Source: a virus. Taken from it: DNA of 64,000 bases. Made by a program: the position numbers and the translations under genes. The notes below the pieces were generated by a model. The model was not told where the DNA came from, searched no databases, and saw nothing but the letters and a program-made list of their open reading frames with translations. The stretch lies in IMG/VR virus record IMGVR_UViG_3300035199_000417, positions 1-64,000 of that record; one strand, written 5' to 3'. The stretch's first letter is position 1. Each line of letters opens with the position of its first letter. Of the stretch, positions 34,601 through 59,982 are shown piece by piece.

Positions 34601-35415
34601 TTCGCCTCCATCTGGGGAAACATCTCGTATTTCCACATCATCTGTGGCCACATTTTTCGAAGAACATGGGGGCCTGGGCCCTTCTCCTCGTTTAAGAATA
34701 GCTGCTCTAAATAGTTATCCCGGTTTTTTGCAGCCCGGCCAGGAACAGCGATAGCAAACCAGTTCTTCGTTAGGAACTGGTATTTGTGCTGAAGGGAACC
34801 CTTGGGATTTTTCGGGTCACGTTGGGTCTCAAAGTTCGGCCCATATTCTCGCCATACACCGCGATCACTAAATCTCCCGGTTGCCTTAAGTCTGCCCTTC
34901 CCCTCTCCCGCAAAGAGTTTTTGGAATGTCTTTTCTCCCTCCTCGTATTTTTTCTTGTAGGAGTCCCTGTCTTTCTTTTCCTTTATGGCGTCCTCATCGG
35001 AAACCAAACGACTCGCGAGGTCTCGCCCGCTATATTTCGGTATCGAGGGAGCGTCGATGTCCCCATACTTCGCCTGTATCTCTCTAGCCCTAGTCGCTTC
35101 ATCCCATGGAACAACGACATCCTCCTCCTCTACTTCCTCTATCTCTGGCTCTGGTGGAACGATGGGGGCGAGTGGTTGGGGGGCAAAAGTCCGTCGCGGA
35201 ACAACACCCCTGCGTTGCGCAGAACTAACGCGGCGGCGGGCCAGAGAGAGAGTGTCGGCATTGTTTGGAGCCCCGCCCTCAATAAGGAGGCTCAGTTGCT
35301 TTTCAACTTCCGGGGTGATGGGCTCGCCGGTTGTTACATCTATGGCTCCGGGGGGGCCAGGATGTTGCAACTCTGGTAACCCAGTTGGCGTGACGGGGGC
35401 GAGTGGTTCTGCCAT
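19618..35415 (-). CDS. giant polyvalent virion protein (5265 aa)
   Basis: One uninterrupted frame of 15.8 kb. In order I see: a Pro-rich start; Gly/Ala-rich hydrophobic helices (about residues 395-545); acidic DPG-type repeats (745-825); Lys/Glu coiled coils; a zinc-peptidase motif HEFMH (1485-1489); a helical domain (1740-2080); a phage large-polyvalent-protein signature with EEIQSDWHQ (2782-2792); a second HExxH, HEATH (3454-3458); a beta-rich module with IGYDPRKATFFYN (about 3880); glycine-spaced helices (4043-4130); and a long helical C-terminal region (4640-5265) like the LPD38 part of other phage polyproteins. The short motif GR-x-S-(F/L/Y) recurs at domain borders. It is probably packaged in the capsid and ejected with the DNA. 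No N4-type RNA polymerase or helicase motif is visible. The start has no clear ribosome binding site. Confidence 0.93.
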   Translation of the reverse strand: MAEPLAPVTPTGLPELQHPGPPGAIDVTTGEPITPEVEKQLSLLIEGGAPNNADTLSLARRRVSSAQRRGVVPRRTFAPQPLAPIVPPEPEIEEVEEEDVVVPWDEATRAREIQAKYGDIDAPSIPKYSGRDLASRLVSDEDAIKEKKDRDSYKKKYEEGEKTFQKLFAGEGKGRLKATGRFSDRGVWREYGPNFETQRDPKNPKGSLQHKYQFLTKNWFAIAVPGRAAKNRDNYLEQLFLNEEKGPGPHVLRKMWPQMMWKYEMFPQMEAKYLRNIRDGLFGSTKEGLAQYEAMSDAEKQDHIYEFKRSLDSATKIAADQKFYIPIIDEAMDALRKGGVGPANILTLGAFSQYLNDAREQVTAETSLAAEKSFLGGEVSRVLSEAGANLTEMLLIGRAASALGATPQALPYYLGGGFGVGVGADSYHRKRSQINAQGVKPSVWEALAYSLMQGGAEAGIAMTFSKMGAHGLEGLMSRGLLKGAAKTQFRKLLAASRKLKDGTPINSFFNPRAIQGAFAAIGTNLPPELLEESATTYAQLMTDVIFSMDFHAMDSDQFEEAMKDTAIQTTVLIGMAEGGRYAGQQGYDYVEKYMDAKKFARLKEKYSDQLGLDRTVEDDPNIDLAEEMAYSEMMSGQLTEHQQNLLVEKSKPGQFAAFAEGVESEEQAKEIYYRLESRNRLGAEEFWKAYQEGKKKPTEREGKESKAAAEEAVKVMEVLGEEADDERKKQEKEFEEATGIQRGDDPDVRQEDPADDIEVTDPGVIRDPDDPADDIEVHDPGVVRDPDDIEVHDPGVIRDPDAAIDEDIEVTDPGEVLDPDTGEVLDEVTTTGEPTGDEIDELIALADQELKEADKPQLVEMAEEIALGTKYEETDFSKATEKQLRAFVKKQRELETVPEVVATPEAPPEVTTPVTTEAEVVPTPVVTEAPVTEAPKGKELEGKTLTLNAKVTAAQSEKHGLPEFNPEKEEAPFSGRIVEAKVLEVDEEAGTATVVTTGHSGNVRGEPGRTWKVDLDKEGNLPEYATVSSEPAKPPSRPEKTFAKKPGPPVVSEKQKDKTKEEITKEKKKVEGERKQREGKIKRQHEAKPIRLMNDTINETALNLADKPEARKDIPRTTKALKQRAEVKVDNYIASLPESMQADLEKTGWRDQQVRSLHGAIDTVANFANAINRGETAKGDGNVSYRIIPPDARATEEVGKEGFQKVPHYRIEVTSPGKAPQLLGDEGVRVVLDDQFGMPLKFGSADSALAHVVDIAFPGTRAARAELAKQEMRQRAEAKAKGEDKGRASFRDRKKGKTTEPKKGEGLITQERKDAVEAVSAMTEAAEAHKKNEGDQQTELDKTKGEAVDDVELAKIEKKRERAKRFAEEQEKWQRMILKSMLPDSKVKYLSIAEARDVLLGKKETVPEMFFIEGEGAPTIANPLTYGKNEIELEKILTSAGVRLVIVKTPARQFNGYSEDRDTVYIASHLVSEMNPNMLFGVGFHEFMHSLKRGAKNSEVEKKLWQDVYDTVKERDPQGLIASRHEYREKMVTELEHLEATLEELEKELASMFDPGPRISHGYEAWLESPKRNWLKDRIAAIKEQIVTHKKNMNDPDFMAEEALSEYLEHMQHAAEIAAYIRSEDPNLARRGLHAMVRFVTGFDPENRGIPKKVAKAFKKVFSELAAAEPSGMTAAPETAARKSFVRVKAQVDELDDVLDGKKPVAAPRFSYAPRFSYKAGLDRTAKASTKKDREARALLVNAGKVVPSGGKKGKQITVADVGRAINRPRTNYEDPADFAAAVSRAVANARYQLQQENTGVDWYNLDMKAAYDITSQIFPELKGNVKGYKQARAVFSMLAAITSNGNAAELNWRFAGLAYGEWDRTGIVPKLNPESNEIFGKQGNALAYALSTMQYMLNKRGVKGTLKFLLSEHSVGELRKIRRKVANEPSLRDPRIEGGGIYKDTPTMSLGGRADKIVPGAYIFGDKIGPFFLNMNGVSDETIDRWAIRTFSREFGGLFDTPDKDTGLHDAPSAKERQYAKRFFREVGKQTGLKPQDAQAVLWFFEKSTYHALGNAASRIAFFSDGARSYAREQGPAELRAKASVAWDAGWRPRTRTQVRPPSKPRALTDVRVGRYSYAEEAAARLDNAKISDLLTVIRENPDGFTADLQATMAGKGFAVSVDKKTEWTPTEVELDEKSLRDYLDKHKEVFQREGAHLGGWLNENYINPKTGEKEERFILDASWPLKSYADAVKAAIWADQDAIFDLQTGTLIKTKEELEDGKTGPPIVPQDYTRKLKGKTTETFTVTETLEEILEGRPDSVPANAEDIWRVEQGVARQDRERREEGDVEGPGRASLRDVDTSRFADALAKLGDNKANFREASLELEQAATEMLGKIPGADKVSLARQTGRNMYFDVVSHIEYERGVEKAVEEAAIQVHVSPNVEFNLQQVAEQLQDEIDDTERTLRKAGRASFSDVWYSKAEDIAKQKKFGGKKSAKEVLKMLDKGGVKSEEIYWSGLAELLGGEDKMVTIQQVLDAIAAGVELHEVVLEGAADRHRAYSLDGAVNPRTILLTMGAKQETTEFEKKHLEKFRDALQVARRRADKMRGDEAIEEYNRANEETQEEYAIRYANGKPKIDRDKLERKLYLQVREFALSVMKEGSLLYRNWEREAALAPHGGPARGAASKRFKDYFGVRPGDLKKERLTRATGETYIGLFHPNIAAVWARKASKKFGLPPDILTKPYSEPHVLDRDGQLDLRDFVGRYTETYSEGHYADKADNIFAHIRFNERTDKDGKVVLFIEEIQSDWHQKARGLRTEEVKSLVRKITDNPLLYDLTDSATHDEIVAKAQTLVSKEFGYQAPIEIKVEVEKLEAKIGEIKKERDGKLNKLKEEEEALEETEVLGQYEQKLYDIKSRVAVLMAEAESETKPLEARLASIKRSRWAMPDAPWKKTWPMMAMKRAIQWASTNVNGKGQPFDKVAWTTGEVQIERYEDDLRSKVDRIEWVGVRQEGVVGEKEVKVTALKDGEQVFREYLPLEGMTDINHHRGVTLDDVVGGRMAKQIREEVASGQPRGVFEGDGLSIGGEGMKGFYDRNLVNDTNGSILRRFKEGKKAEKVGTVEVNLGEVPFGTGYKGPDRTVEEVEKFRDIAPDVSEGGEQGFQSWKTPWLEDGPTFISSRHTRENWPSIDVVAAEFEDELEGMISDMHSGFTFSQAMDRHAGGEEARAGALLSYYFGGEMETEYRTTTKESHGFDLTDKIRASAQEKGQERFSYRDPAEDWNPFDEASKLTDPDAPVFDMVRDTLEAHKEKYWPRAGDTLEEAIDRLMNQPDEPHRMMDTQRAILAGTYDQEVAARDSVSEAATAQHLLWKELLPILQSQRTGVPRLAVMGRSDEYKAKDQKTIGGNYDPWQEMEGIDRKKALPDQTIPTINLFTDAILLRQAIRAVRKSSWAGARADWIRRDATTSVLKTLLHEATHAATRTMTLERWLGGRYWSPETEKGKMYTAWSKHIGPETKEVYARLTTILKRSRFVEKKRAFPNLGRPANSWHSKFYGLTNEAELVAEAFSNPEFRKFLASIKVPRSTKFAHLRGKNLLEAFINAIVDMLGIKSKKAVTALEEVLGLSETLMREDTLADLKRRDEAESREAGLRIQAKIEKAEEQKAFKPKVLDTGEAKSLRDKLLAKRQERDFLYMRGSDPSQIEAADAAIAKLEKQLRELELRSIQKVRKLLASSRKLKEAEREGRYSFREPPLDKATPWPKFKYPVWKKVEVSNKEHLKAEAHMKPTKGELEDRAGFEGRVFENRAKGLVGKMVRARINIPYFEKAQKYAISVHSMFKKGGKIKADPEKGEVGAIIGYDNFVRLVGKVRFRHDEGKALKILTEGATKSTIAVVEGEMGKRGQHRIPADINDWIPIGYDPRKATFFYNKITGEQVLEAEEAISIGNTVFVKKVTKIGLEKDGKTPKNAKKQNVEARKIRESNWRAFVEKQERRPTGRASFRETPKKRAPLTGVRKLIDVAGEKAGLNQRERQALASEIIRYEKHHDPRLTPSMLVRMAKAFEERHYRKGYKAGTRDTAREEFLKGLITGMNKGWRDGYKAGDAEGSYTALVKGMDRGWKAGERYGRGEGRAEGYEVGKRRGIKEGWLFGQEAMVETKLLLFSYMKEILPELELIKVIPTLLKARTPAELNRVWKAAQRILDNYDKNTAIQDVRDAVKESSRSKLRTEHQESLEKILSGFNLSKPNEATLAKAVRTLDAAMKQDDIGEIPTWLQDAAYEILRKSGATYIRDMATQDIVNLAKIIRATAHQTVIKNQLLSHANDKETARVVASAEGAIKKIWRKTRGRFVRDRKGKRRERKLARTSLPGRVWKGATHSQLNYQTRLVQIFGRNKAAQKVMVDNLRDGERKFAELSLAAQGYMREVMADNRITQEDLKTWDEDFFTIRLPDRTDGSRARGSTLDMTMDEFMGLMLNLADGETRSEILDNKNEGVLFKSALGKGTETRPVALNANDIRVIYKEAARHPKMIAVANAMFAYVNGSQRDTLNKQWRKVFGHEIASREDYWPRRRERQAKDQAAMDRRVTEKKLENQHIFKPRAHSEKAFVIEGGMVSFFESINRSSLFIAKGEAVADAITLLNQVEGEVRERVHMGGEKLESLRETLKRYQGLDMPEEGTIAKATRQFQRIVHTGTLGFKPQIMAYQTASLVTAAADMKLGSLLFSDLSVDDIHYSGQAMREIEKHSAILYSRIRGGAHQIITPSASSSGFREFYGMKDTKAEWVSNKALSWIKWGDSRVVIRVWKAAKLEMKKKKLTGDELLRATARRTEEVFENTQPTWNPLTVSDLAMEGRQNALVQLLTMYSTQRNKNLNIAIQAWLDYSHKDIGPREMLRKVFLSQFSNAMMISFMQAGIRTLIQSLWALGGWGDDDEEVSIWEKLGLTPKQFATKMLGNWIIHGDIAGYGVETVTGPIREDYDSRLRETVAIAAIKDTFDSLASVTAQMRIMWNDERYENGPNEGESKAAAGLLNVFQEGLQAAGYYGVPTHAVRQIAGPAIFSKPKYDGSTEILYRTDKGYNKAVREKDVDGQIAGKFAHAVKLGAAGTWDDLVEARLADDEKEIKKSSKKMNAISDKYIEAEATGASFPSLRTKPIQGETPAADHKRRVRKWKSGRGVDDSEIVVQEAFERLVWSQAKIVSMAESLPIYDPRADEDEKEDYQKRMKKFKAKKLAAEAWIALYSDSPALKRVLKKLRASPAYQRVRLGAASGGSVDSRRRNAQKKKHSSPLVILP
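24263..24296. repeat. 34-base intragenic repeat, copy 2 (one mismatch to 33917-33950)
   Basis: The 34 bases match 33917-33950 with a single difference. The encoded peptides are RKLLASSRKLK (near residue 3710) and RKLLAASRKLK (near residue 490) in the same frame of the giant gene, 9.65 kb apart. Such near-identity at the DNA level inside an otherwise diverged protein suggests recent copying or gene conversion. Confidence 0.85.
32956..33175 (-). repeat. tandem acidic DPG repeats within the giant gene
   Basis: Four to five imperfect copies of a unit encoding DIEV(T/H)DPG-V-(I/V)-RDPD. Unit lengths vary through insertion of DPADD or AAIDE, which suggests slippage-driven expansion. The stretch (residues about 745-825) is an extended acidic linker. 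Confidence 0.85.
33917..33950. repeat. 34-base intragenic repeat, copy 1
   Basis: Partner of 24263-24296 with 33 of 34 bases identical; encodes the RKLLAASRKLK peptide near residue 490 of the giant protein. Confidence 0.85.
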
Positions 35416-38761: not shown

Positions 38762-39295
38762 TCAATACGAGGCGACATTAGGATCGACATTCGCTTCATC
38801 ATTTGGTGGAACGTTCTTCTTGTTCTTCTTTCTTTTTCTACCCCCACCACCACCCGGACGACCAACAAAGATATTGCCACCCCTCCCCCATCCTCGTCCT
38901 CGTCTTCTTCTTCCCTTCTTCTTTTCTTTTTTCTCTTGGGGGTTAGCTGCCTCCCACCGCAGTTTAGCGATATCTTTCCGTCGCGTTTCCCTGGCCGTGA
39001 TTCGTTGAGCAGACTTCTGTCTCGACTTGGCCAATAGCTTACTTCTAGGCGTATTGGAACGCGCCTCGCGAATTTCTTGGCGGCGTTTAATAGACTGAGC
39101 CGACATGGGATGCGAGGGGCGCTGTTTAGCAGCAAGAACCCTTGCGTCACGGCCCTTCATATTCGCCCTTTCCATGTTTCGTACAGCAGCTTGCCGCCTC
39201 GCGGACACCTGTTCCGGGGTCTCACTAACCCCCAGTTGGTCGGGTCTGGCGGAGCCGAACCGCGAGCGGGGGCCGTATATTGATTGATATGCCAT
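38762..39295 (-). CDS. very basic small virion protein candidate (177 aa)
   Basis: A 177-residue Arg/Lys-rich protein: helical basic N-terminal two thirds (RRQEIREARSNTPRSK), then KKEKKKGRRRRGRGWGRGG and a Gly/Lys-rich run, ending in a short acidic tail. It overlaps the tail-nozzle gene by one base. The composition suggests nucleic-acid binding, either as DNA condensation in the head or as a disordered interface. Confidence 0.65.
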   Translation of the reverse strand: MAYQSIYGPRSRFGSARPDQLGVSETPEQVSARRQAAVRNMERANMKGRDARVLAAKQRPSHPMSAQSIKRRQEIREARSNTPRSKLLAKSRQKSAQRITARETRRKDIAKLRWEAANPQEKKEKKKGRRRRGRGWGRGGNIFVGRPGGGGGRKRKKNKKNVPPNDEANVDPNVASY

Positions 39296-41634
39296 TAGCT
39301 TTTGTCCTTTCTAGAACGACTGGTTGTTCTAACTGTTCCCGTGACGGACTCCATGGCCCAGCGGCGGTCGCAGTCTGCGTTTTTAAGTCTAAGTCTGATC
39401 CATGTTCCTGTGACCATGGGGTAGTTGGTGTGCTGCATTCCTTCTGTTTCGTGTCCGTACCATACTCCAGTAAATGCTGGCTCTGTTTTGTTGTTGGCCC
39501 TCTCGGCGCTGGAGCCTGTGTACACCTCGTAGTCAACGTCGCCTGATCCGCTGGCCAATGAAGCGTTCAACTTCATCAGCTTGGCCTCCATGCCCTCTTC
39601 CGCTATCTGCGCGAAGAGGTCAACGTGGCTGTCAAACCCCGTGCCGTCTCGCTGGTCGCCTTTGGTTGCATCGTATGTTGAATCGTCCTGAGCCAAGCGG
39701 TGGTCGGGGTGTCTGATATATCCGTCTCTGCATCCGAATAGCGTCCACGATGTCGCGGCTGAGTAGCCCCTTCTCTGGTGGGCTATCCTCGGCTCGAAAT
39801 CAGTGCTGGGGAACGTCTGCTCAAAGAAGGCAACGTCGAATTGGTCACCCTTGAACGTGGTCTTCATGTCTACCCAGTAGTGCGTCTTTGCGTCGGTGGT
39901 GGCAGACCTGAGAATGTAGAAGCCCCTCCCGTGAACGTCGGCTTCAAGAACAATGTCGTCCGCTTCATTAAGTAAGTCGTCTGGAATTTTTTCTCTGGAC
40001 AGGGATATCGGCGGCGAGCCGCATTGGCCCTGCATTAGGTAGAGACCGTCGTGGCTGAGAAAAACCATGCGATGTCTCTCAAGAAAACACCACGCATGTG
40101 GGCCGACAATTCCGATGTTTGAGTCCAGCTTCGTTAACACGCCGCCCATGGCGGGGTCTCCTCGACACACCCAGGTCGAGTTTTCAGTGAACACCACTAA
40201 GCAGCTATCTGCCCAATCAACGATGCCCGTGACAGGTTCGCTTAACAGACCGGCCTCGGCTGTCGTGAAGATGATGGGCCTGCCCAGGTCTTGAACATCG
40301 TCGGTTAGTTGCCAGTCGCGAGGGTCACCTTGGCGGCTCATGCGAACAACATGCGGAGACGAAGAGTCAACCATGACCATTCGTGATCGCCAGTTGACTA
40401 GAACCTTAGAACCTAGCGGCACAAAACCGTGTCCAGGCTTCGCCTTCCATTGGATTACGTCTCCGCTTCCGTCTGGGTCGATAACCTTGGGGGCTCTCTG
40501 CACGTTGTATGCTACCGTGCTAGCACCGTCGTCGATGTCAATCGCGTAGGTTAAGTCCAGCGTGCTTGCTCCAACGGCCTCGATAGGAACATTCATCACG
40601 GTGATCGGCCCTGGCCCGCCCTTGGTTGTCTCAGTGTAAGTGATCGTGATGTCTGCTGGAGCGGATGTCGCAAGGGTGTTGGTATACGTTGAAAGCATCG
40701 GCACATCTATGCCTTCTAGGTCGTTTATGAATTTAACATCCATAGTCGTGCCACTGGACAATACATCGCTACCAGAACCGTATGTGCCACCGCCAAGGCT
40801 AACCACACAATTGCCCTTTCCTATACCAGGGAGGCCACATAGCTGAAAGCCGATAGCCTCCGCTGTATCCGTCACCGCAATGGCTTTACTTCTCCTGCCC
40901 CAGTAACCGGAGAATCTTCGCTGGTATGCCCACATGCTGTACTTGGGATCAACTTGAGGCGTGACAACTTGCTGGCGGGGGCCGAAAGAGAAACTAACAG
41001 TTCCACTGGCCGGTACGCCACTCAGGGTGACACGCTGTATCTCCTGCACAGGGGTTCCCTGTGTCTGAATCATTAGGGCGTGTTTTTCTACGTCAACCAG
41101 TGGGGGAATACCAGAAGTGAAACCGGCCCCAGCGGACTTGGTCACCCTACTGCCAGCACTACCCTTGCTGGTGGCCGATAGGTCGGTTCCCGTAATTACG
41201 GGTGTTCCCCAGTCGGCAATGTATAGCTTGCCCGCAAACTCAGCCGCCATCAGGAGAACGTCGTCTGCGATGATACCGGCAGGGACTGCGCCGCCTGTTA
41301 TCTTACTTAGAGTGGTAACCCCAGTGCCAGAATCCGTTGCCCCCCACCACACCTCTCCGTTAGCGCCAGCAACTACCTTCTCAGTGATGGTGACGCCTGG
41401 AGTGTTGACGTAGCGGAATGACGACAACAGATTGATGTCGTAGCTTCCTCCTGCAATTTGTGGGGTATAGCCGTCCTTGACGAATGCGGGGCGGGAGCCG
41501 CCTCGCTCTCGCTGCTGGAGTGTATCGTCCGAACGGACGTTAGATGCGGAGGGGGTCGTTAACTCTGGCTGTGCCCCGTGCGGGAGACGCTTGTTGATGC
41601 CCTGTGTTGGAAATGAAAATGTTACTTCTCTCAT
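39295..41634 (-). CDS. tail nozzle / packaged-DNA-stabilisation-like protein (779 aa)
   Basis: A 779-residue beta-rich protein. The N-terminus (REVTFSFPTQGINKRLPHGAQPELT) and the later stretches VWWGATDSGTG, ITGIVDW...DSCLVVFTENSTWVCRG-type and GLYLMQGQ resemble the beta-propeller proteins at the distal tail of podoviruses (T7 gp12-like or P22 gp10-like). Typical features are a VD-x-R-x-MVMVDS strand and repeated short blades. It lies between small decoration genes and internal virion proteins, the usual place. The conserved lead-in PTQGINKRLP is characteristic of similar proteins in environmental phages. Confidence 0.65.
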   Translation of the reverse strand: MREVTFSFPTQGINKRLPHGAQPELTTPSASNVRSDDTLQQRERGGSRPAFVKDGYTPQIAGGSYDINLLSSFRYVNTPGVTITEKVVAGANGEVWWGATDSGTGVTTLSKITGGAVPAGIIADDVLLMAAEFAGKLYIADWGTPVITGTDLSATSKGSAGSRVTKSAGAGFTSGIPPLVDVEKHALMIQTQGTPVQEIQRVTLSGVPASGTVSFSFGPRQQVVTPQVDPKYSMWAYQRRFSGYWGRRSKAIAVTDTAEAIGFQLCGLPGIGKGNCVVSLGGGTYGSGSDVLSSGTTMDVKFINDLEGIDVPMLSTYTNTLATSAPADITITYTETTKGGPGPITVMNVPIEAVGASTLDLTYAIDIDDGASTVAYNVQRAPKVIDPDGSGDVIQWKAKPGHGFVPLGSKVLVNWRSRMVMVDSSSPHVVRMSRQGDPRDWQLTDDVQDLGRPIIFTTAEAGLLSEPVTGIVDWADSCLVVFTENSTWVCRGDPAMGGVLTKLDSNIGIVGPHAWCFLERHRMVFLSHDGLYLMQGQCGSPPISLSREKIPDDLLNEADDIVLEADVHGRGFYILRSATTDAKTHYWVDMKTTFKGDQFDVAFFEQTFPSTDFEPRIAHQRRGYSAATSWTLFGCRDGYIRHPDHRLAQDDSTYDATKGDQRDGTGFDSHVDLFAQIAEEGMEAKLMKLNASLASGSGDVDYEVYTGSSAERANNKTEPAFTGVWYGHETEGMQHTNYPMVTGTWIRLRLKNADCDRRWAMESVTGTVRTTSRSRKDKS

Positions 41635-42802: not shown

Positions 42803-43168
42803 TTATGCCTCTATGAGCAGGTATTCGATGATGACATTGCCGGTGTTAGCGATCACGAATGGCGCGGTGGCATCGGCGGCGAAGCGGAACAGAGCGAACT
42901 CGCCAGCATTGATCCTGATGAGATCGGCTACCCCTGTGGCCTGCCGAACCTCGACGTAGTTGGTTGAATCGAGGTTCTTAATCAGACAGAGACCGGGGGT
43001 TCCAGCGTCGAGCATGCCGAGTGCCTCTTCGCCAGTGCCGACAGTCTGGGTTCTGTGGGTGATGTCCCCACCAGACATATCAATAGAGAGGCCAACCTTT
43101 GCTAACTTGTCGGTGACGCCGTCCTTGGTTACCTGTAGAGAGCCGCTAACAGTAATTTCTTCGGCCAT
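42803..43168 (-). CDS. small virion protein with a KNLDSTNYVEV motif (121 aa)
   Basis: A 121-residue beta protein containing LIKNLDSTNYVEV, then RINAGEFALFRF. This pattern, a strand with a conserved N-x-D-x-T-N and a later AGE-x-x-L-F turn, is repeated in the protein at 17135-17581 and is common in phage head or tail decoration proteins. It directly follows the nine-unit adaptor-like gene. Confidence 0.7.
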   Translation of the reverse strand: MAEEITVSGSLQVTKDGVTDKLAKVGLSIDMSGGDITHRTQTVGTGEEALGMLDAGTPGLCLIKNLDSTNYVEVRQATGVADLIRINAGEFALFRFAADATAPFVIANTGNVIIEYLLIEA

Positions 43169-43182
43169 CCTTGGCCTCCTTT

Positions 43183-46100
43183 TTATGGTGAGTATCCTGT
43201 GTAGGTGACAAGATTAAGATCGGCGTCGTGAATGTCGTTGATAAACTGGTCACTCGGCCTGTCCGATCCGTCGTAATCCCGACCAAGTGTGTCCGGGCTG
43301 GATAGTTGTCTGTCATAGCTAATAGATGCCTGAAGACACTGCATGTACGGCATCTCATGCGGGCTTCGAGGCATCTTCATAAATAGATCGGCAGACATGA
43401 GGCAAGCCTCTAACAGCGTCTGCGTATGGGGCTGCCCCCCTAATGGGTGTTCCTGGTCCTGAACGATAAATCTGGGGTTCGTTTCATACCGATAGTGTAA
43501 CGTGTAAGCCTGATCTGGCACAGGATATAGAAGGATTTCATATCGAGTTCCAGAAAATTCCCCACCAATTATGGGTCGAATCGCAAAATACCGAGTTCTT
43601 CCGGTGTGGTCACCGGCCTGTCGTAGCTGCTCGATCTGTGATTCAGATATCTCCTCGACGTGTGGATAGAGAACCGCAGAGCCAGGGGCGAAGTGCATGG
43701 GGCCATTGAAGGTTCCGAAATCGTCAGGCAGATCGTAAGCGTATGTGTCAGCAATACATTTGAATGTTTGCTTCGGATACAAAAAGCTCCAGCGGTGCAT
43801 CTCCCTTTCGTTGGGGAGAACCATCGGGTAATAGAACCTTCTCAGGCCGTCCATGACCGCTTGTTCAATCTGGGACTTCTCGTCATGTGTCCAGCCTCCT
43901 GGGTTGGGCTTTGAATACATAGCGTGGCCAACACGTCTCAGCAGCCCCTTACGGTTTAAGGTCAGGTCTTCCGGGGTATCCTCGATGGGCCATATTTTCG
44001 CGGCGTACAAACCGGATGCCGCGCCCAGGGCGGCGTCACCAAACTTGCTGTCCCGATTGATTGAAGCTGCTAGGCATCTCTGAAATTCCGCTTCGTGGGG
44101 CCCGGTTTTATCCAGGAACCGATCCGCAGCCCACAGGCATGATTCCAAAATCGTTGTCGAGTGTAGCCGAGAGCCGTATGGGTAGGCGTTCTCATCATTG
44201 ATAAAGCCTGGAATAACGTCGTACTGATACCTTAGCGTGTGGGCGGCAGTGGGTTTGGGATAGAAAACAATCTCGTAAATCTGTTGGAACCCTGCACTGA
44301 CGACCTTGGGCCTGATGGCACAATACGATGGCTCCGTAGCGGTTTGGGCCAGGGTACTCCTGAGACTCCTCAAGTCCTCCTCTGTCACTAACTTGATTGG
44401 AGCCTGGGTTCCTGAATCAAATGTGATTGTATCGGATACCAGACCGCCAAAATCCACAGGTAGATCATACGTGTCAGTGTTGGCGGCTGTTACCAAGGAA
44501 GCGTTCGGACTCAGAAAACTCCAAGAGTGCCCTTCGGCTCCCTTTACCGGCGTATACCAATAGAAGTTAGTCAAGCCGGTAATCAATATCTGTTCTAAGC
44601 GGCTCGTCTCGTCGTGGCTCCAGGAGCCAGAATTGGGCTTGCCGAAAACATGGTGACCAAGTCGCTTCAGCAAGCCAGCCCTGTCAAACGCAAGATCACT
44701 GATCGGGTCTTCTATGGGCCAAACCCTGCCACTGTCCCCATCAGAAAGCGAGATATCCCTCTGGATAGAAGCAGCTAGGTTTTTTTGAAACTCCGCTTCG
44801 TGGATTCCGGTCTCTCCGAGCATTTTGTCGGAGGCGGCAAGACAGGACTCCAAAATCGTAATTGAGTGGAGCCGAGAGCCACGGGGGAAGGTGTCACTCT
44901 CGTTAATAAACCCCGGAATAACATCATATTCATATTTAAGAGTGTGTCCCGCCGTTGGGCTCGGGTAGAAGGAGACCTCATAAATCTGTTGAAAGCCTTC
45001 GCTGGGCTCCTTGAGTCTGATGGAACAATACGATGGCTCCGCAGCCGTCTGGGCCAGCGTCCCCTTAAGAGTCCGCAGTTCCCTCTCCGTCACTAATTTA
45101 ACGGGGGCCTGGGTTCCTGAAGTGAAGGTAAACCCGTCTAGCCTTAGCCCCCCAAAATCTGATGGGAGATCGTAGGTAGATGTGCTGGCAACAATTGACA
45201 ACGAGGCGCTGGGCCGCAAAAAGCTCCAGGAATGGGACGGGCCACCTTCGGGAGAAGTGTACCAATAAAAGTTATTGAGCCCAGTCGCCAGGGCTAGGTC
45301 TACCCGTCTCTTTTCGTCGTGACTCCACGATCCTGGATTGGGTTTATTAAAAAGCCGGTCTCCCAACCTCTGCTGAAGGTCCGCCCTATTAAGGCTTAAC
45401 CCCGTGTCAACGGGCTTTATGGGCCAAATATGGGAATCCCCCCCGGTGGGAAGGGCCACGTCCCTCTGAATGGAGGCTATTAGGTGCTTCCGAAACTCCG
45501 CTTCATGGGCCCCAGATTCTCCCAGAATCTTTTCGGATGCCGCCAGACAGGCTTCTAAAATGGTGATCGAATGAAGCCTGGAACCGCGAGGAAATCTATC
45601 CTGTTTATCTATGAAATCTGGAATAACGTCGTATTCATATTTCAAGGTATGAGCGGCAGTAGGGCTCGGGTAAAAAGACACCTCGTAAATCTGCTGGAAT
45701 CCTGCACTGGGCTCCTTGAGCCGAATCGAGCAGTACGAAGGCTCATTGGCCGACTGGGACAAGGTGCCCCTGAGTGTTCTCAGTTCCTCTTCGGTCACCA
45801 GCTTGATAGGTGCCTGGGCACCGGATTCAAACGTAAAGCCCCCCAGACGCAAGCCGCCGAAGTCGGTGGGCAAGTCATAGGTGGAAGTATCGGCAGCAAC
45901 TGACAACGAGGCGGAGGGGCGCAGAAAACTCCAGGTATGGGCCTCGGCCCCTTCCGGGGGTGTGTACCAGTAGAAGTCATTGAGCCCGGTTGCCAGGGCT
46001 AGGTCTACCTGTTTCCTTTCGTCGTGGCTCCACGATCCTGGATTGGGAAGATCGAACATCTGCTGGCCGATCCTCTGGAGCAGACCGTCCCGGTCTATGC

Positions 46101-49100
46101 CTAGTGTCTCTGTGTCGGGCCCTATCGGCCAGATACCGGCGGCACCCGTGTCCCCCTCTGAAAACTTCTTGTCGCGGAGGATTGATGAGACCAGACATTT
46201 CTGAAATTCCGCTTCGTGTGTGCCCTTCTCGCCAAGAAACTCGTCAGCGGAAAACAGACACGCTTCTAGGATCGTTGTCGAATGCAGACGCGATCCGTAT
46301 GGATAAATGTTTGAACTATCAATGAAATTAGGAATTATGCTGTAGCGATACCGCAGCGTATGGCTGGCAGTTGGCTCTGGATAGAAGATTGCCTGATACA
46401 CCTGTTCAGAGCCCGCGCTTGTGACTTTCGGCCTAATTGCACAGTAGGACGGAGCGGTAGCGGTCTGGGCCAGCGTCCCGCGAAGAGTCTGAAGTTCACT
46501 CTCAGAAACCACTCTGATGGGGGCCTGGGTTCCTGAATCAAACGTGAACTCTTTGGAATGGAGACCACCAAAATCCGCAGGTAGGTCATAAGCCGATGCA
46601 CCGGACACGATAGATAGATTCTTACTCGGATTCAGAAAACTCCAGTCGTGTTCCCCTGTCCCTTCGGTGGGAGTAAACCAATAAAATCTACTCAGCCCCG
46701 CAACCATAATTTGATCCAGGCGGCGCTGCTCGTCGTGGCTCCAAGAACCTGGATTGGGCTTGTCAAAAACATGATGGCCCAATCGCTGAAGCAGACTGTC
46801 CCGATCAAAAGTTAGGCTTGTACGGGCATCCTCTATCGGCCATGCGCGGCTGGTCCTGGCTATGGACAAAAACTTCTGGTCGCGGCGGATAGAAGCGACT
46901 AGGCACTTCTGAAACTCCGCCTCATGGTTAACCGGCCCCTCAAGACCAAGCTCGCGTTGAGCGGAGGCGAGGCATGATTCCAGGATCGCCATCGAGTACA
47001 TCCGCGAGCCTAGAGGATAGACGTTGTCGTTGTCTATGAAGCCAGGGATAACTGAATAGCGGTACTTCAGAGTGTGGGCAGCGGTCGGCTTAGGATAGAA
47101 AACAACCTCATGGACTTGCTCGAAGCCCTCGCTAACGGCCTTCGGCCTGATAGCGCAGTACGATGGCTCGGAAGCCGTCTGTGCGAGAGTCCCCCTGATG
47201 GCACGAAGCTCCTCCTCGGACACTAACTTAACGGGGGCCTCTGTGCCAGAATCGAATGTGAACTCTCCAGACTCCAAGCCGCCAAAGTCCACGGGCAGAT
47301 CGTAAGTGTCGGTGCTGGCTAATAGCGACAGCTTCGCAGCGGGCTTCAGAAAACTCCACGAATGCGATTCGTCAGACCCTTCTGGCGACGTGTACCAATA
47401 GAAATTACTGAGACCATTAACTAATATCTGCTCAACTATGCTTTTCTCGTCGTGCGTCCAGGAACCGGGGCTTGGCTTATCAAAGGCAAGCGACCCGATG
47501 CGTTGTCTCAGTCTAAACCTGTCCAGAGTTAAGCCAGTGGGCATCTCGTCCATTGGCCAGATGTGGGCGCGGTTCCCCTCATCAGAAAGTCCTCGGTCTC
47601 GGTAAATTGAGGCCACTAGGGCTTTCTGAAACTCTGCCTCCTGGGGGCCGGGGGCTCCAGCAATCTGGTCGGCTGCTGCCAGACACGCTGCCAGGATAGT
47701 TGCGGAATGCAGGCGAGAGCCATACGGGAAGACATCCGTGTCATCTATTAGCCCCGGAATGACGCTATAGCGGTATCTCAGCGTATTGGCAGCGGTAGGC
47801 GACGGGTAGAAGACTGCCTCGTAAAACTGTTCAAACCCATCAACGGTAACCTTCGGCCTAATGGCACAATACTGGGGCTCCGTAGCAGTCTGAGCGAGGG
47901 TACTCTGGATAGTCCTTAGCTCTTCTTCGGTAACCAGCTTTACAGGTGTTTTATTCCCGGTCTCAAATGTAAAGCCGTTCGAATAAATACCACCAAAGTC
48001 AGCGGGGAGAGCGTATGTGTCCGTGTTGGCAATTAACTCACAGTATGCGGTGGGTTTTAGAAAGCTCCACGAATGCTGTTCGCCTCCCTCTGGCGGCGTG
48101 TGCCAATAAAATGAACTCAAGCCAGCAACCAGGGCCTGTTCTACTTTCCGCGACTCGTCGTGACTCCAAGAGCCTGGGTTGGGCTTAGTAAAAAGTCTCT
48201 CGCCAATCCTCTGCCGAAGGTCTAGTCTGTTGAGGCTTAGTCCCGTGTCGTCAGGCTTTGTGGGCCAAATGTGTTCAGTCTCCCCAGTAGGGATACCACC
48301 ATCCCTCCGAATGGACGCCATTAGTTTCTTCTGAAACTCCGCTTCGTGCGCCCCAGGTTCTCCACCACTCCGTTCGCCTGCTGCTAGGCAGGATTCTAAA
48401 ATGGTATCTGAGTGAACCCTGGAGCCGCGAGGGTATATGTCCTGCTCATCTATAAACCCCGGAATAACATCGTATTCGTATTTCAGGGTATGAGCGGCAG
48501 TAGGGCTCGGATAGAAAGACGCTTCATAGATTTGTTGAAAGCCCTCACTCTGCTCCTTGAGCCTGATCGAGCAATATGAGGGTTCAGTTGCAGATTCAGC
48601 CAGAGTGCCCCTAAGCGTTCTCAGTTCTCCCTCTGATACCAACTTAATGGGGGCCTGTGTCCCAGATTCAAACGTGAATCCCCCTAGACGCAGGCCACCG
48701 AAGTCTACTGGCAAGTCATAGGTAGACGTGTTGGCAACAAGCGACAACGAAGCGGATGGCCTCAGAAAACTCCAGGTGTGGGTCTCTCCGCCCTCTGGTG
48801 GCGTGTACCAGTAAAATGAAGACAAACCAGCAACCAGAACCCGCTCTACTTCCTTGGTTTCGTCGTGACTCCATGAGCCTGGATTGGGCTTGTTAAAAAG
48901 CTGGTTACCAAGTCTCTGCCGAAGGTCTGACCGATCAAGGGTTAAGTCATCCTGCGGGTCTTCAATCGGCCAGATGTTAGCGCCTTCGGCCCCGTCCGAA
49001 AACTCCTGGTCTCGACTGATCGAGGAAGCGAGACACCTCTCAAACTCGGCCTGATGATTGACGCCTCCTTCCTCCTCTGTCTCTAAGAACTTGCGTTGGG

Positions 49101-49677
49101 CGACGGCCAAACAAGATTCCAAGATCGTGGTAGAGTGGAGACGAGAACCGTATGGGTACTTATTACTATCGTCAATCAGGCCGGGAATGATCGAGTAGCG
49201 GTATCTCAGGGTGTGGGCGGCTGTCGGTGACGGGTATAACAGCACCTCATAAATCTGCTCAATTCCTTCGTTTGTTATCTTTGGCCTTACCGCACAGTAC
49301 GAGGGCTCGGTCGCAGTCTGCGCCAGGGTTCCCTGCACAGCGCGAAGCTCCTCTTCGGTCACCAGCTTGATAGGTGCCTGGGTTCCTGTATCAAAGGTAA
49401 AGCCATCGGAATAGAAACCGCCGAAATCCGTGGGGAGGTCATAGGTGCTGGTGTTGGCTGAAATGCCTAGTGTTGCACTTGGCTTCAAAAAGCTCCAAGA
49501 GTGGGCCTCGGCCCCCTGGGCCGGGGTGTACCAGTAGAAGTTACTGAGCCCTGTTATCAGGACATCTTGGACATTTCGAACTAGCTCGGGTTCCCATTGC
49601 TCTGGTTCCCGCGACTGGCCAATAAACCACCCAAGTTCCCGGCGTATGTCGTCATATGTTTTGCTAAGTTCTGACAT
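43183..49677 (-). CDS. nine-unit tandem adaptor/connector-like protein (2164 aa)
   Basis: One frame of 2164 codons made of nine consecutive homologous units of 235-243 residues. Each has an N-terminal helix with LxxRxG and a PGSWSHDE block, then GL-x-x-FYW and a HSWSFL-x-P strand, a DFGG turn, a YCAIRPK or YCSIRLK strand, a YPSPTAAHTL-x-Y hairpin, a P-x-GSR-x-HS-x-TILE helix, an EAEFQ helix and an IWP end. HDE-type anchors lie near 49586, 48859, 48154, 47447, 46730, 46019, 45314, 44609 and 43880. The first unit (QWEPELV) and last unit (GGWTHDE, FYYPMVLP) are most diverged. Size, gene position and the last unit resemble single-copy head-tail adaptor proteins of podoviruses (SU10-like), which is inference. 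The units fall into two subtypes plus the last one. Confidence 0.9.
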   Translation of the reverse strand: MSELSKTYDDIRRELGWFIGQSREPEQWEPELVRNVQDVLITGLSNFYWYTPAQGAEAHSWSFLKPSATLGISANTSTYDLPTDFGGFYSDGFTFDTGTQAPIKLVTEEELRAVQGTLAQTATEPSYCAVRPKITNEGIEQIYEVLLYPSPTAAHTLRYRYSIIPGLIDDSNKYPYGSRLHSTTILESCLAVAQRKFLETEEEGGVNHQAEFERCLASSISRDQEFSDGAEGANIWPIEDPQDDLTLDRSDLRQRLGNQLFNKPNPGSWSHDETKEVERVLVAGLSSFYWYTPPEGGETHTWSFLRPSASLSLVANTSTYDLPVDFGGLRLGGFTFESGTQAPIKLVSEGELRTLRGTLAESATEPSYCSIRLKEQSEGFQQIYEASFYPSPTAAHTLKYEYDVIPGFIDEQDIYPRGSRVHSDTILESCLAAGERSGGEPGAHEAEFQKKLMASIRRDGGIPTGETEHIWPTKPDDTGLSLNRLDLRQRIGERLFTKPNPGSWSHDESRKVEQALVAGLSSFYWHTPPEGGEQHSWSFLKPTAYCELIANTDTYALPADFGGIYSNGFTFETGNKTPVKLVTEEELRTIQSTLAQTATEPQYCAIRPKVTVDGFEQFYEAVFYPSPTAANTLRYRYSVIPGLIDDTDVFPYGSRLHSATILAACLAAADQIAGAPGPQEAEFQKALVASIYRDRGLSDEGNRAHIWPMDEMPTGLTLDRFRLRQRIGSLAFDKPSPGSWTHDEKSIVEQILVNGLSNFYWYTSPEGSDESHSWSFLKPAAKLSLLASTDTYDLPVDFGGLESGEFTFDSGTEAPVKLVSEEELRAIRGTLAQTASEPSYCAIRPKAVSEGFEQVHEVVFYPKPTAAHTLKYRYSVIPGFIDNDNVYPLGSRMYSMAILESCLASAQRELGLEGPVNHEAEFQKCLVASIRRDQKFLSIARTSRAWPIEDARTSLTFDRDSLLQRLGHHVFDKPNPGSWSHDEQRRLDQIMVAGLSRFYWFTPTEGTGEHDWSFLNPSKNLSIVSGASAYDLPADFGGLHSKEFTFDSGTQAPIRVVSESELQTLRGTLAQTATAPSYCAIRPKVTSAGSEQVYQAIFYPEPTASHTLRYRYSIIPNFIDSSNIYPYGSRLHSTTILEACLFSADEFLGEKGTHEAEFQKCLVSSILRDKKFSEGDTGAAGIWPIGPDTETLGIDRDGLLQRIGQQMFDLPNPGSWSHDERKQVDLALATGLNDFYWYTPPEGAEAHTWSFLRPSASLSVAADTSTYDLPTDFGGLRLGGFTFESGAQAPIKLVTEEELRTLRGTLSQSANEPSYCSIRLKEPSAGFQQIYEVSFYPSPTAAHTLKYEYDVIPDFIDKQDRFPRGSRLHSITILEACLAASEKILGESGAHEAEFRKHLIASIQRDVALPTGGDSHIWPIKPVDTGLSLNRADLQQRLGDRLFNKPNPGSWSHDEKRRVDLALATGLNNFYWYTSPEGGPSHSWSFLRPSASLSIVASTSTYDLPSDFGGLRLDGFTFTSGTQAPVKLVTERELRTLKGTLAQTAAEPSYCSIRLKEPSEGFQQIYEVSFYPSPTAGHTLKYEYDVIPGFINESDTFPRGSRLHSITILESCLAASDKMLGETGIHEAEFQKNLAASIQRDISLSDGDSGRVWPIEDPISDLAFDRAGLLKRLGHHVFGKPNSGSWSHDETSRLEQILITGLTNFYWYTPVKGAEGHSWSFLSPNASLVTAANTDTYDLPVDFGGLVSDTITFDSGTQAPIKLVTEEDLRSLRSTLAQTATEPSYCAIRPKVVSAGFQQIYEIVFYPKPTAAHTLRYQYDVIPGFINDENAYPYGSRLHSTTILESCLWAADRFLDKTGPHEAEFQRCLAASINRDSKFGDAALGAASGLYAAKIWPIEDTPEDLTLNRKGLLRRVGHAMYSKPNPGGWTHDEKSQIEQAVMDGLRRFYYPMVLPNEREMHRWSFLYPKQTFKCIADTYAYDLPDDFGTFNGPMHFAPGSAVLYPHVEEISESQIEQLRQAGDHTGRTRYFAIRPIIGGEFSGTRYEILLYPVPDQAYTLHYRYETNPRFIVQDQEHPLGGQPHTQTLLEACLMSADLFMKMPRSPHEMPYMQCLQASISYDRQLSSPDTLGRDYDGSDRPSDQFINDIHDADLNLVTYTGYSP

Positions 49678-49991
49678 CAGCTAAGGTTCCTCTTAACGTG
49701 AAATCCTTCAATCTCTGACTTAAATGTTCCAGTGGATAAGATTACCTGTGCCTGCATCTCCCAGTGGCCGACCTCATCCAGGTCACCGGCAACCGTCGTG
49801 TACTTAATCTTGCCATCAGTTCCAGAGGTGCCGCCGAACTCAGCAGTTTTAGTCACAACCTTGCCGCTAGGTTTCTTGAACGTAATGTATTTTTCGTTAG
49901 AACCGGCAGACTGCACATCCACCACACTGCCTCCATCCTTCATTGTGAGCATGAAGACCGTTCCAATATCGTCCTGATGTATTTCAGCCAT
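49677..49991 (-). CDS. small virion protein, BppU/Ig-like fold candidate (104 aa)
   Basis: The 104 residues read as an all-beta domain: DIGTVFMLTMKDGG, ITFKKPSGKVVTKTAEF, IKYTTVAGDLDEVGHWEMQAQV, FKSEIEGFHV. The T-x-x-G-D-x-D-x-x-G-x-W motif is typical of the N-terminal domain of BppU-like baseplate upper proteins and related fibre-attachment modules. It shares one base with the nine-unit gene and probably helps to attach fibres. Confidence 0.65.
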   Translation of the reverse strand: MAEIHQDDIGTVFMLTMKDGGSVVDVQSAGSNEKYITFKKPSGKVVTKTAEFGGTSGTDGKIKYTTVAGDLDEVGHWEMQAQVILSTGTFKSEIEGFHVKRNLS

Positions 49992-53794: not shown

Positions 53795-54829
53795 TTACTT
53801 GGACCCAACCCACATGGCTCGGCGGTTGTAACAACAATATTGCATCCAGTTATCAATATGAACTTCCCGAACCGTGTGCTGCCGGGCTGCGGGCTTCGGC
53901 GGGTTACGCCGCATGTTCGCGCCTTTCTTCACAACCGGACGGAAGTATTTCCAGTTAACCCCGTACAAGGGATCGTCGGTATCGTTAGATTCCAGATACG
54001 GAACCCACTTAATCGGCACACCACCAATGACCACACTGTTGATGTACTTCGCCACGTCGGCACCGAGATTGTCGTTGCGAGTTTCCGCAAGACGTTCCAG
54101 CGGTTCCTGCACTCGGTAGGTCGTGTAGATGGCGTGAGAAGGACTAGCGTAGCCCAACTCGGGGTGGGGGACAGGCGGCGTAAAGTTAGTGAACGCCAGG
54201 GATTTCTTGACCTTTTTGATAAGATCGTCGGACGCTATGGCGCTATACTGGAACGTCCAATTACTGAATCGCGGAAATGTCACACTACTAACATTTGCAC
54301 AACCAGTAGAGTGAGTAGACGGGTTTCCGCCGTTGAATGCACCACCAGGAGTGGAGGTGTTCTTCTGAAGCCAGAAGGGAACGCCCATGGGACGAGTGTC
54401 GGTAGTGGACGTAGGAGCCGTCCAAAGATTCTCTTCATTCAACTCTGCCATATCGGACAGAGCGTCATGCTCGCGAATCTTGAGTTCCTTGATGATCGTC
54501 TCACGATCACTCTGGAACAAGTCCTCGTAGATGTCGTAGCTGAAGTTCGTAGTCTGCATCGCCCACGGCACACTGGCGGTGGTCGTCACATCCTCGACCT
54601 TGGTGATGTCCTGGGCATACATCCCCGTATTACGGGAGTTGCCGGTGTTCTTGTGCTTGATACGGAAGGAAATATCCTTACCGCCGCGCTCCTGCACGTT
54701 CTTCTCGGTGATGATGCCAGACGCAACATACTCCTGATGCTCCAGGCTGATGTCCGTCCACTTGTGCTTCTTAAATAACGAGAGTGTTAGATTGACAAAG
54801 TCGTCAATTTGAAGGGGTGTCAGTGCCAT
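53795..54829 (-). CDS. major capsid protein
   Basis: A 344-residue protein starting after GGAGGCTTACA. It is located after portal and scaffold genes and before decoration genes, the standard head order. Residues 60-110 include KNTGNSRNTGMYAQDI and an SVPWAMQTTNFSYDIYE segment (E-loop and spine-helix region). The middle contains NLWTAPTSTTDTRPMGVPFW, which is similar to known coat proteins of environmental podoviruses. The C-terminal half (VQEPLERLAETRNDNLGADVAKY) would form the P- and A-domain helices of the HK97 fold. The last 60 residues are basic and aromatic, including a QYCCYNRRAMW motif. Assignment rests mostly on context and this pattern. Confidence 0.85.
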   Translation of the reverse strand: MALTPLQIDDFVNLTLSLFKKHKWTDISLEHQEYVASGIITEKNVQERGGKDISFRIKHKNTGNSRNTGMYAQDITKVEDVTTTASVPWAMQTTNFSYDIYEDLFQSDRETIIKELKIREHDALSDMAELNEENLWTAPTSTTDTRPMGVPFWLQKNTSTPGGAFNGGNPSTHSTGCANVSSVTFPRFSNWTFQYSAIASDDLIKKVKKSLAFTNFTPPVPHPELGYASPSHAIYTTYRVQEPLERLAETRNDNLGADVAKYINSVVIGGVPIKWVPYLESNDTDDPLYGVNWKYFRPVVKKGANMRRNPPKPAARQHTVREVHIDNWMQYCCYNRRAMWVGSK

Positions 54830-57994: not shown

Positions 57995-59890
57995 TTACAT
58001 TGGAAGCGGCGCTCCCTGCTGGGCCTGTAACTCCGGTAATCCACCCGGTGACTCTGCACCCGGACCTGGGCCACCCGGCCCTGCGGTGGGGGGGGCCTGC
58101 TGCTTGGAAGTATTGATTACCGATTCAGTAGCCATACTCGGAGTGCCCTGCGGACCCACCTTATTCAAACCCGCTTGAGCCAAGTCTTGTCCGCTAAACT
58201 TAATAAACTCACGCAGCCTGGGTTCGTTGGTTAACTCGGAGAACAATTCTAGCAGCCGCTCAAAATCTATCTGACCACCCTGCTGCATCAATCCGTCCTG
58301 GAACTGAGCGAATAGATTAAGCATGTTCGTGATGTTTTGTACGCGATCATCGGGACTTTGGTATCCCATGCTGAAGATGTCAATGTCCAGGTTGTAGTCG
58401 ATGAAGTCTCCCTCCCTCATCTCTGGCGTCCAAGTCGCATTTACATTGACATTCTCCGTGCCTTCGACGGTATATTTGGCGGGCATCTCCTTCACTTCAT
58501 CCTGCCAGAGCATGAATCCCAGGTCTCTGACCAGCGACGTGGCTGCCTCGACCACGCGATACTGCATCTGGGCCTCCTTCTTTGACGCCTGGGACTTGAC
58601 GATTTGTTCCTGGCGAGCGGTCGGGGCAGACGCCCCCAGCCCGGCCTGCATCTGAAGATTGCCAGACATCCGATCAAACATATCGACAATGCCGCCAAGG
58701 AACTGGGCATTGAGTTCGTCTACGCCGCCGATCTGCACTTCCCGTAGCTCTCCGTTCTCCTGAACCTGCACCCAGGCATCAGCGCCAGCCCGCTGCACTC
58801 GCTGCGCGTCCTTGTGTGATGCCGGGGGATAAGTATGCACCCTGCGAGCGGCCCTCGCGGAAGCGGCGTTCTTCCGCATTATATTGTTGGCCAACTTAGA
58901 CAGGTTATTAAGATGGCTGGCTGGACTTGTGGGCATGATGTTCTCGGGAACGTCATTAAATGATAGAAGGTGATACGGCCCGAACTCGGGACCATCCCAA
59001 TCCATCACAGCCAGCGGTTTGTGTCGCCCCTCGAATCTCTTGGCGTGATCCATGGCGAATGTATAAATTTTGTTGTCTCGGGGGAGCCACAAATCCATGA
59101 GGTCGATCATCGGCTCGTATTCGTCGGGGTCTGTGGCCGCGCCCCTAGAAATAAGTTCCAGCCGCTCTCTCTCTTGGTGGAACTTTGAAGTCGGATTCAA
59201 CTCCTTGACGACATCCTGATCCCAGAGTTCGCTATCATCCAGGTCGGAAAAGGGGATGCGATAGCTGTCGCCAGCGTACTGCACCTCGGAATACTTCTTG
59301 GCCGTCATGTCATACACGAAGTTGTCGAGACTGACATTGCTGGCGAATGGTTTTCCGGGGTCCATCCATAGGTCTGGCTCGACCTCCACCTGTCCAGAGT
59401 CGGCCATGTGAACCTTGACCACGCCGACACAAAAAAATGCGTCTAGCACCCAACGACGTATCGTCTGTTCAAGACCTATTTCTTTAATCAAATTATTAGT
59501 TGCGGTCTCAAATACCTTCGCGAAGAATAAAAGGTCGTCGTGGTGTGTGGAGATCAGAACCCTGGGGCGGTTCGCAGCGAGGGCCATTGTGTAAGCCTCG
59601 ACTGCTTGGTTCATCAGGTTCATGTAGATTTCGTGTCTCGGCCCCTCTCCCTGACCGTATGAGGAGCCCACATACTCTTCGACCAAGTTGTGCATCAAGG
59701 AACGAAACGGCTGCAATTTCTCGTAAGACTTTTGGACGGAACTTAGCAGTCTGTTGCGGGTGGTCTCGTCGCCCATCCCCTTCGGCCTGAACACCTCTTC
59801 TCGGCCAAAGGCGTCTCGCTTCTTGTCTTTCTCACCAGTGTATTGCCCTGACTGGCTAGACTTCTCCCCGGTGTACTTACCATCTGCCAT
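57995..59890 (-). CDS. portal protein
   Basis: A 631-residue protein directly downstream of the large terminase, preceded by AAGGA. The crown and clip pattern is recognisable: SSVQKSYEKLQPFRSLMHNLVEEYVG near the start, EAYTMALAANRPRVLI, DPDEYEPMIDLMDLWLPRDNKIYTF-type segments, then GASAPTARQEQIVKSQASKKEAQMQYR and EAATSLVRDLGFMLWQDEV, which correspond to the stem/crown helices of podovirus portals. The C-terminus is a Gly/Pro-rich disordered tail. Dodecameric ring function is inferred from the family. Confidence 0.85.
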   Translation of the reverse strand: MADGKYTGEKSSQSGQYTGEKDKKRDAFGREEVFRPKGMGDETTRNRLLSSVQKSYEKLQPFRSLMHNLVEEYVGSSYGQGEGPRHEIYMNLMNQAVEAYTMALAANRPRVLISTHHDDLLFFAKVFETATNNLIKEIGLEQTIRRWVLDAFFCVGVVKVHMADSGQVEVEPDLWMDPGKPFASNVSLDNFVYDMTAKKYSEVQYAGDSYRIPFSDLDDSELWDQDVVKELNPTSKFHQERERLELISRGAATDPDEYEPMIDLMDLWLPRDNKIYTFAMDHAKRFEGRHKPLAVMDWDGPEFGPYHLLSFNDVPENIMPTSPASHLNNLSKLANNIMRKNAASARAARRVHTYPPASHKDAQRVQRAGADAWVQVQENGELREVQIGGVDELNAQFLGGIVDMFDRMSGNLQMQAGLGASAPTARQEQIVKSQASKKEAQMQYRVVEAATSLVRDLGFMLWQDEVKEMPAKYTVEGTENVNVNATWTPEMREGDFIDYNLDIDIFSMGYQSPDDRVQNITNMLNLFAQFQDGLMQQGGQIDFERLLELFSELTNEPRLREFIKFSGQDLAQAGLNKVGPQGTPSMATESVINTSKQQAPPTAGPGGPGPGAESPGGLPELQAQQGAPLPM

Positions 59891-59913: not shown

Positions 59914-59982
59914 CTATTGAGGCGGGACTACAACCCTACTTACACCATCATAATCGACTGTTTCTGGATTGCCTAACTCCAT
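59914..59982 (-). CDS. possible 22-residue ORF between terminase and portal
   Basis: An ATG overlapping the terminase stop opens a 22-codon frame (ELGNPETVDYDGVSRVVVPPQ after Met) that fills the 82-base gap before the portal start. No ribosome binding site or family is evident. Confidence 0.2.
   Translation of the reverse strand: MELGNPETVDYDGVSRVVVPPQ

Follow-up and report, generated by a model that had tools for sequence, protein, structure and literature searches.

The adaptor gp11 of the Kuravirus SU10 (PF24175; PDB 7z47, 7z4b) carries one domain per chain and forms one dodecameric ring. The T7-type adaptor (gp11, tail tubular protein A), organised like SU10 gp11 with a helix bundle, a fibre dock domain and an embracing loop (PMC9509320), also has a single domain per chain and a single ring. 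The locus described here raises the question of what a phage could build from a chain which contains nine such domains in succession, with one tail for all nine. It is located in the IMG/VR virus record IMGVR_UViG_3300035199_000417, of which 64,000 of 64,892 bases were analysed (the window). An earlier note, made from the letters of this DNA alone, had described nine homologous head-tail-adaptor-like units in one frame and had suggested that such a chain might change the stoichiometry of the ring or act as a string of binding modules.

Alignment of the units bears out the nine copies in a single ATG-to-stop frame (Table 1). The length of 235–243 residues given to them in that note is correct for units 2–8 and too short for units 1 and 9 (245 and 259 aa). 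The ordered motifs said to recur in each unit do so only in part: unit 1 has PEQWEPEL in place of the PGSWSHDE of the other units, and in unit 9 YFAIRP replaces YCA/SIR and IWP is missing. An IWP-type linker follows each of units 2–8, with the variants AWP (unit 4) and VWP (unit 7).

Table 1. Features of the nine-unit adaptor locus, in window coordinates
Feature	Coordinates	Strand	Length	Basis or remarks
Nine-unit head-to-tail adaptor protein	43183–49677	-	2,164 aa	open frame and PF24175 in nine stretches
Unit 1	48943–49677	-	245 aa	A-type with A-type N-terminus (alignment, chimera test); 72% identical to A unit of relative L001
Unit 2	48238–48942	-	235 aa	
Unit 3	47530–48237	-	236 aa	
Unit 4	46813–47529	-	239 aa	
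Unit 5	46102–46812	-	237 aa	
Unit 6	45397–46101	-	235 aa	
Unit 7	44692–45396	-	235 aa	
Unit 8	43963–44691	-	243 aa	
Units 2–8 together	43963–48942	-		chimeric: B-type first ~35 residues, A-type body (alignment, chimera test)
Unit 9	43186–43962	-	259 aa	B-type; groups with last units of relatives, near single-copy adaptors
C-terminal tail of unit 9	43186–43302	-	39 residues	absent from units 1–8; kept in relatives by single-copy adaptors and last units
121-aa protein downstream of adaptor	42803–43168	-	121 aa	family co-occurs with multi-unit adaptors
104-aa protein upstream, overlaps adaptor start	49677–49991	-	104 aa	orthologues in two-unit relatives
Major capsid protein	53795–54829	-		weak match to PHROG 9953 major head protein
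Probable portal protein	57995–59890	-	631 aa	lies between terminase and capsid genes, also in relatives
Terminase large subunit	59973–61982	-		PHROG 2, Pfam Terminase_6N
Probable tail nozzle protein	39295–41634	-	779 aa	low-confidence model and conserved position

The Pfam profile PF24175 (SU10_adaptor) matches nine separate stretches of the ORF with a score that excludes a chance match (E=1.2e-81, 274 bits against a cut-off of 27), and it is also matched by 14 of 14 fused or paired relatives. In a sequence search of the PDB the units gave a chance-level match only. Structure prediction, one of the checks proposed in the earlier note, gave a model of units 8 and 9 (mean pLDDT 75.9) that includes the helix bundle and beta domain of the adaptor fold and matches solved adaptors and rings in Foldseek (E 3e-7 to 5e-4), namely VP1 (8zkk), SU10 (7z47, 7z4b, 7z4f), Pa223 (9nwi), GP4 (8jov), cyanophage A4 (9k09) and the rings of crAss001 (7qoj, 7qog, 7qoi). 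T7 gp11 is absent among the matches listed. The relative placement of the two units in this model is undefined (pTM 0.45, linker pLDDT <50). Named matches among viral predicted structures include head to tail adaptors and tail tubular protein A. Together with the gene order and a nozzle-like neighbour, the Pfam and Foldseek matches confirm the adaptor-like nature of the domain. The best reading of the ORF, from its sequence and predicted fold, is that of a tandemly fused head-to-tail adaptor from a short-tailed phage, which shares with SU10 gp11 the family, the predicted fold, a C-terminal tail and a position before the nozzle gene (the window's nozzle model being of low confidence).

The genes are arranged, in transcription order, as terminase, probable portal, capsid, small genes, adaptor, small genes and probable nozzle, an order common to the relatives. 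The terminase is ~26% identical to proteins of other phages among the matches listed, and the capsid protein is 83% identical in the nearest relative. Orthologues of the 104-aa protein, 68–77% identical, occupy the same position in two-unit relatives; the stop codon of its gene overlaps the adaptor ATG (TGATG). The portal candidate has no family match. The best PDB matches of the nozzle model (pLDDT 53) are podophage tail-complex chains (Pa223, SU10, E1004, Kp9, GP4, VP1), and profile searches of the PDB with the nozzle and portal alignments gave no credible match. A quarter of the genome is occupied by a 5,265-aa ORF (19618–35415), which has no Pfam match above cut-off and is partly similar to giant proteins of two relatives (G001, G017). 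Its product is possibly an ejected internal virion protein; across relatives the giant internal protein showed no clear scaling with unit number.

Relatives were gathered by scans of IMG/VR with adaptor, capsid and portal queries. Neither the whole adaptor ORF, nor the adaptor of a single-unit relative, nor the capsid protein found a match by tblastn in the 50,697 phage records of INPHARED, and no relative turned up among the prokaryote genomes scanned. The search for other unit counts, also proposed in the earlier note, returned ORFs with 1, 2, 3, 4 and 5 units. One-unit ORFs occur in many contigs, two-unit ORFs in G001, G002, L066, L073, L171/L198 and L253, a three-unit ORF of 760 aa in L076 and a four-unit ORF of 985 aa in L208. 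The five-unit ORF (1,273 aa) is present in two contigs from different samples, L260 and L265, with 1,272 of 1,273 residues identical, and the nine-unit form in the window only, in one contig, in scans from which records nearly identical to the window may be absent. In other relatives (e.g. L063, L011, L092, L216, L222) a separate one-unit gene precedes a two-unit gene; units fused in some relatives are separate genes in others. G001 and G002 are close to the window, with the same flanking genes and a capsid protein 82–83% identical to its own. These two, L076, L208, L260 and L265 share with the window the locus, the flanking families, the linker signature and a single tail on the last unit, and differ from it in having fewer units (two to five). 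The open-access literature searched holds no report of a fused multi-unit adaptor. The form is not an isolated one; the two- to five-unit adaptors found here are, as far as we checked, undescribed.

Among the 77 distinct adaptor ORFs with a judgeable end, 60 extend at the C-terminus by 25 residues or more, in most cases with a motif resembling LGYNxDxSD...VxYNG. The other 17, which include several overlapping cuts of one gene, are separate upstream unit genes of multi-unit phages, which stop after the last helix, and one ORF truncated at the edge of its contig. In the fused proteins, in the window and in relatives alike, the tail is present on the last unit only. SU10 adaptors dock to the portal through a C-terminal embracing loop (PMC9509320), and by analogy the tail of unit 9 is probably a portal-embracing loop. 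In a tree, the last (B) units cluster with single-copy adaptors (97/91). Given this grouping and the tail pattern, the most plausible view is that unit 9 represents the ancestral adaptor that docks to the portal, to which units 1–8 were added as rings or modules. The assignment of unit 9, alone in bearing a tail, to a putative portal-docking type is new here.

The architecture that we favour, and hold to be rather probable, is a covalent tail barrel on the portal, in which each of twelve chains would contribute one subunit to every stacked ring, the array being derived from an A+B gene by unequal crossing-over. The chains would assemble in register on the dodecameric portal, where the unit 9 tails would lock and twelve units 9 would form the first ring. 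Units 8 to 1 would form eight further dodecameric rings beneath, with unit 1 proximal to the nozzle on which the barrel ends, and linkers of ~25 residues would join successive rings. We infer the stacking by analogy, and symmetry, portal contact and virion position from homologues. The closest known arrangement is the tail barrel of crAss001, ~23 nm long, in which four paralogous proteins of adaptor fold form five stacked dodecameric rings; podoviruses other than crAss001 had, according to its authors, shown only one such ring (PMC10172136). The ring proteins R1–R5 of crAss001 (PDB 7qoj) resemble the window's protein in their adaptor-type fold and in the presence of several paralogous units per phage. 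For the window, we propose that the likeness extends to a podovirus tail with a long barrel of stacked dodecameric rings. The crAss001 rings are encoded by four separate genes and are 15–31% identical, whereas units 1–8 of the window are fused in one ORF and are 52–75% identical; no close relation between the two phages was seen.

In addition to the crAss001 arrangement, the stacked rings are supported by the single portal tail per fused chain, borne by the last unit, by unit counts of 5 and 9, which are not divisors of 12 and argue against one lateral ring, by the conserved linker signature and by the occurrence of the same units fused in some relatives and as separate genes in others, where they must pack unlinked. 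The explanation as a whole, comprising a fused adaptor, stacked rings and an origin by crossing-over, draws further on PF24175 in nine stretches, the fold matches to adaptors and crAss001 rings, the series of 1, 2, 3, 4, 5 and 9 units per ORF, the chimera tests of the window and of L208 (below) and the nozzle-like protein encoded downstream. The count of domains would then determine how many rings are stacked and hence how long the barrel is, nine rings measuring ~40 nm when scaled from the five of crAss001. The broader claim that domain count encodes tail-barrel length (12 parallel chains, nine rings, 108 domains), and that lineages retune it by intragenic unequal crossing-over, is one to which we give even chances. 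If it is true, ring order would be fixed by covalent linkage. The natural series of fused domains, with one portal tail per set, would lend itself to a test of tail length against domain number.

Fusion might alternatively have made successive units of a chain lateral neighbours in a single 12-fold ring, which would then need fewer chains: six two-unit or four three-unit chains would complete it. In SU10, neighbouring adaptor subunits alternate between two conformations, holding six fibres (PMC9509320), and a fused A-B pair could fix this alternation. Such arcs suit chains of two, three or four units but neither the five-unit nor the nine-unit chain; with one portal tail per chain they would leave most portal sites empty, and the crAss001 paralogues of adaptor fold sit in separate rings. 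We consider them unlikely, and the evidence favours one domain per stacked ring over the changed ring size that the earlier note had raised.

The linkers invite a different reading, in which a phage or host protease would cut them to release nine separate, ordinary ring subunits. They are predicted to be disordered, and in some relatives a unit is indeed encoded as a separate gene. However, the linker signature, G-x-W-P...R..L.R..G, is kept in relatives that are just ~30% identical, a conservation which would equally suit a structural contact, and we regard a polyprotein as quite improbable. There is, in our estimate, a slim chance that unit 9 alone forms the ring and that units 1–8 trail from the neck as docking sites for fibres or decoration proteins, which would correspond to the string of binding modules of the earlier note. 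The extra units retain the whole adaptor fold under purifying selection and occur in relatives as separate genes too, without a tether to the neck. These observations stand against docking modules, even if the adaptor fold of SU10 includes a fibre dock domain (PMC9509320), several small structural genes adjoin the ORF and the 121-aa family accompanies multi-unit adaptors. With one portal-docking tail per chain, the evidence again favours one domain per stacked ring.

The units themselves carry traces of how the array was formed. Unit 9 is 30–38% identical to the rest at the protein level; DNA identity between units is 54–73%, and 43–49% for unit 9. Synonymous sites are saturated for most unit pairs and dN/dS is 0.08–0.21 where computable, values that indicate an old origin of the units and purifying selection on them. 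An assembly artefact multiplying a two-unit gene is very unlikely, as the earlier note had already argued: the nine-unit form is in a single contig and has exact repeats of up to 34 bp, the longest inside the ORF, but its units are too different, and relatives carry 1–5 units in one ORF, including the five-unit form recovered from two samples.

With the A and B units of two-unit relatives as reference, the first ~35 residues of units 2–8 are 48–71% identical to B against 10–29% to A, and the remainder is 57–69% identical to A against 30–37% to B. These chimeric units, described here for the first time, appear to be the footprint of unequal crossing-over: misaligned A/B recombination in an A-B gene would yield A-(B/A)-B, with the junction kept, and in this way a two-unit gene would have become an array. 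The four-unit relative L208 has a similar pattern. In the N-terminal part of its units 2 and 3, 19–20 of 35 positions are common with its unit 4 and 4 of 34 with its unit 1; in their bodies, 98–104 of ~179 are common with unit 1 and 58–62 of ~178 with unit 4. The same chimera thus seems to have arisen there independently. Units 1–3 of L208 form their own clade in a wider tree (100/99), as do units 2–4 of the five-unit form (99/94), which indicates amplification in at least three lineages; in the five-unit form the chimera is not clearly visible. Positional selection could also keep the B-type N-termini of units 2–8, and both processes may act. A tree of the bodies only favours neither order of the amplification and the split from two-unit relatives (AU p 0.43). 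In the wider tree unit 1 joins the A units of two-unit relatives (98/93), a grouping that would imply contraction in those relatives. The evolution of such a structure may be traceable here, the crossover point being visible within units and the same rearrangement in two lineages.

The 121-aa family is associated with multi-unit adaptors. Counted in the analysed stretch of each set, and leaving out loci selected by the 121-aa protein itself, it was found in 16 of 20 distinct multi-unit sets and in none of 41 single-unit sets. The counts in an earlier set were 12/16 and 0/30, with a Fisher p of 5e-8 which overstates the association since relatedness is uncorrected. Two single-unit contigs outside the count, short or selected by the 121-aa protein, do carry it (L078/L246, L161). 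This association, also new here, points to a role for an unannotated family, whose members may serve as collar or decoration proteins in barrels of several rings. L073, L208 and L263 also encode a homologue at another place in the structural block.

Several relatives show further modifications of the adaptor gene. In two of them (L034:10513–12052, L060:6118–7763) one unit is divided between two adjacent frames, at a shared point (after ~model position 92), and the second frame begins M[G/V]NTF.TT with its ATG at or just past the stop (TAACATG; CCATGATGG), which would be either a site of recoding or a conserved fission of the gene. Many single-unit relatives have an N-terminal domain of ~100 aa fused to the adaptor (L003:4514–5608; L101 and similar), and others (L082–L089, L065) an insertion of ~60–90 residues at model position ~73. 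In another group (L064:6994–14798, L094/L259, L096, L257, L258; L062:6531–12320) the adaptor is interrupted by several kb of sequence that encodes other proteins. The break in the last unit falls at model position ~168, and the final two helices and the tail form an ORF of ~101 aa located 3–7 kb later. In L064 the insert encodes a protein of 1,503 aa which has laminin-G lectin domains and probably binds a receptor.
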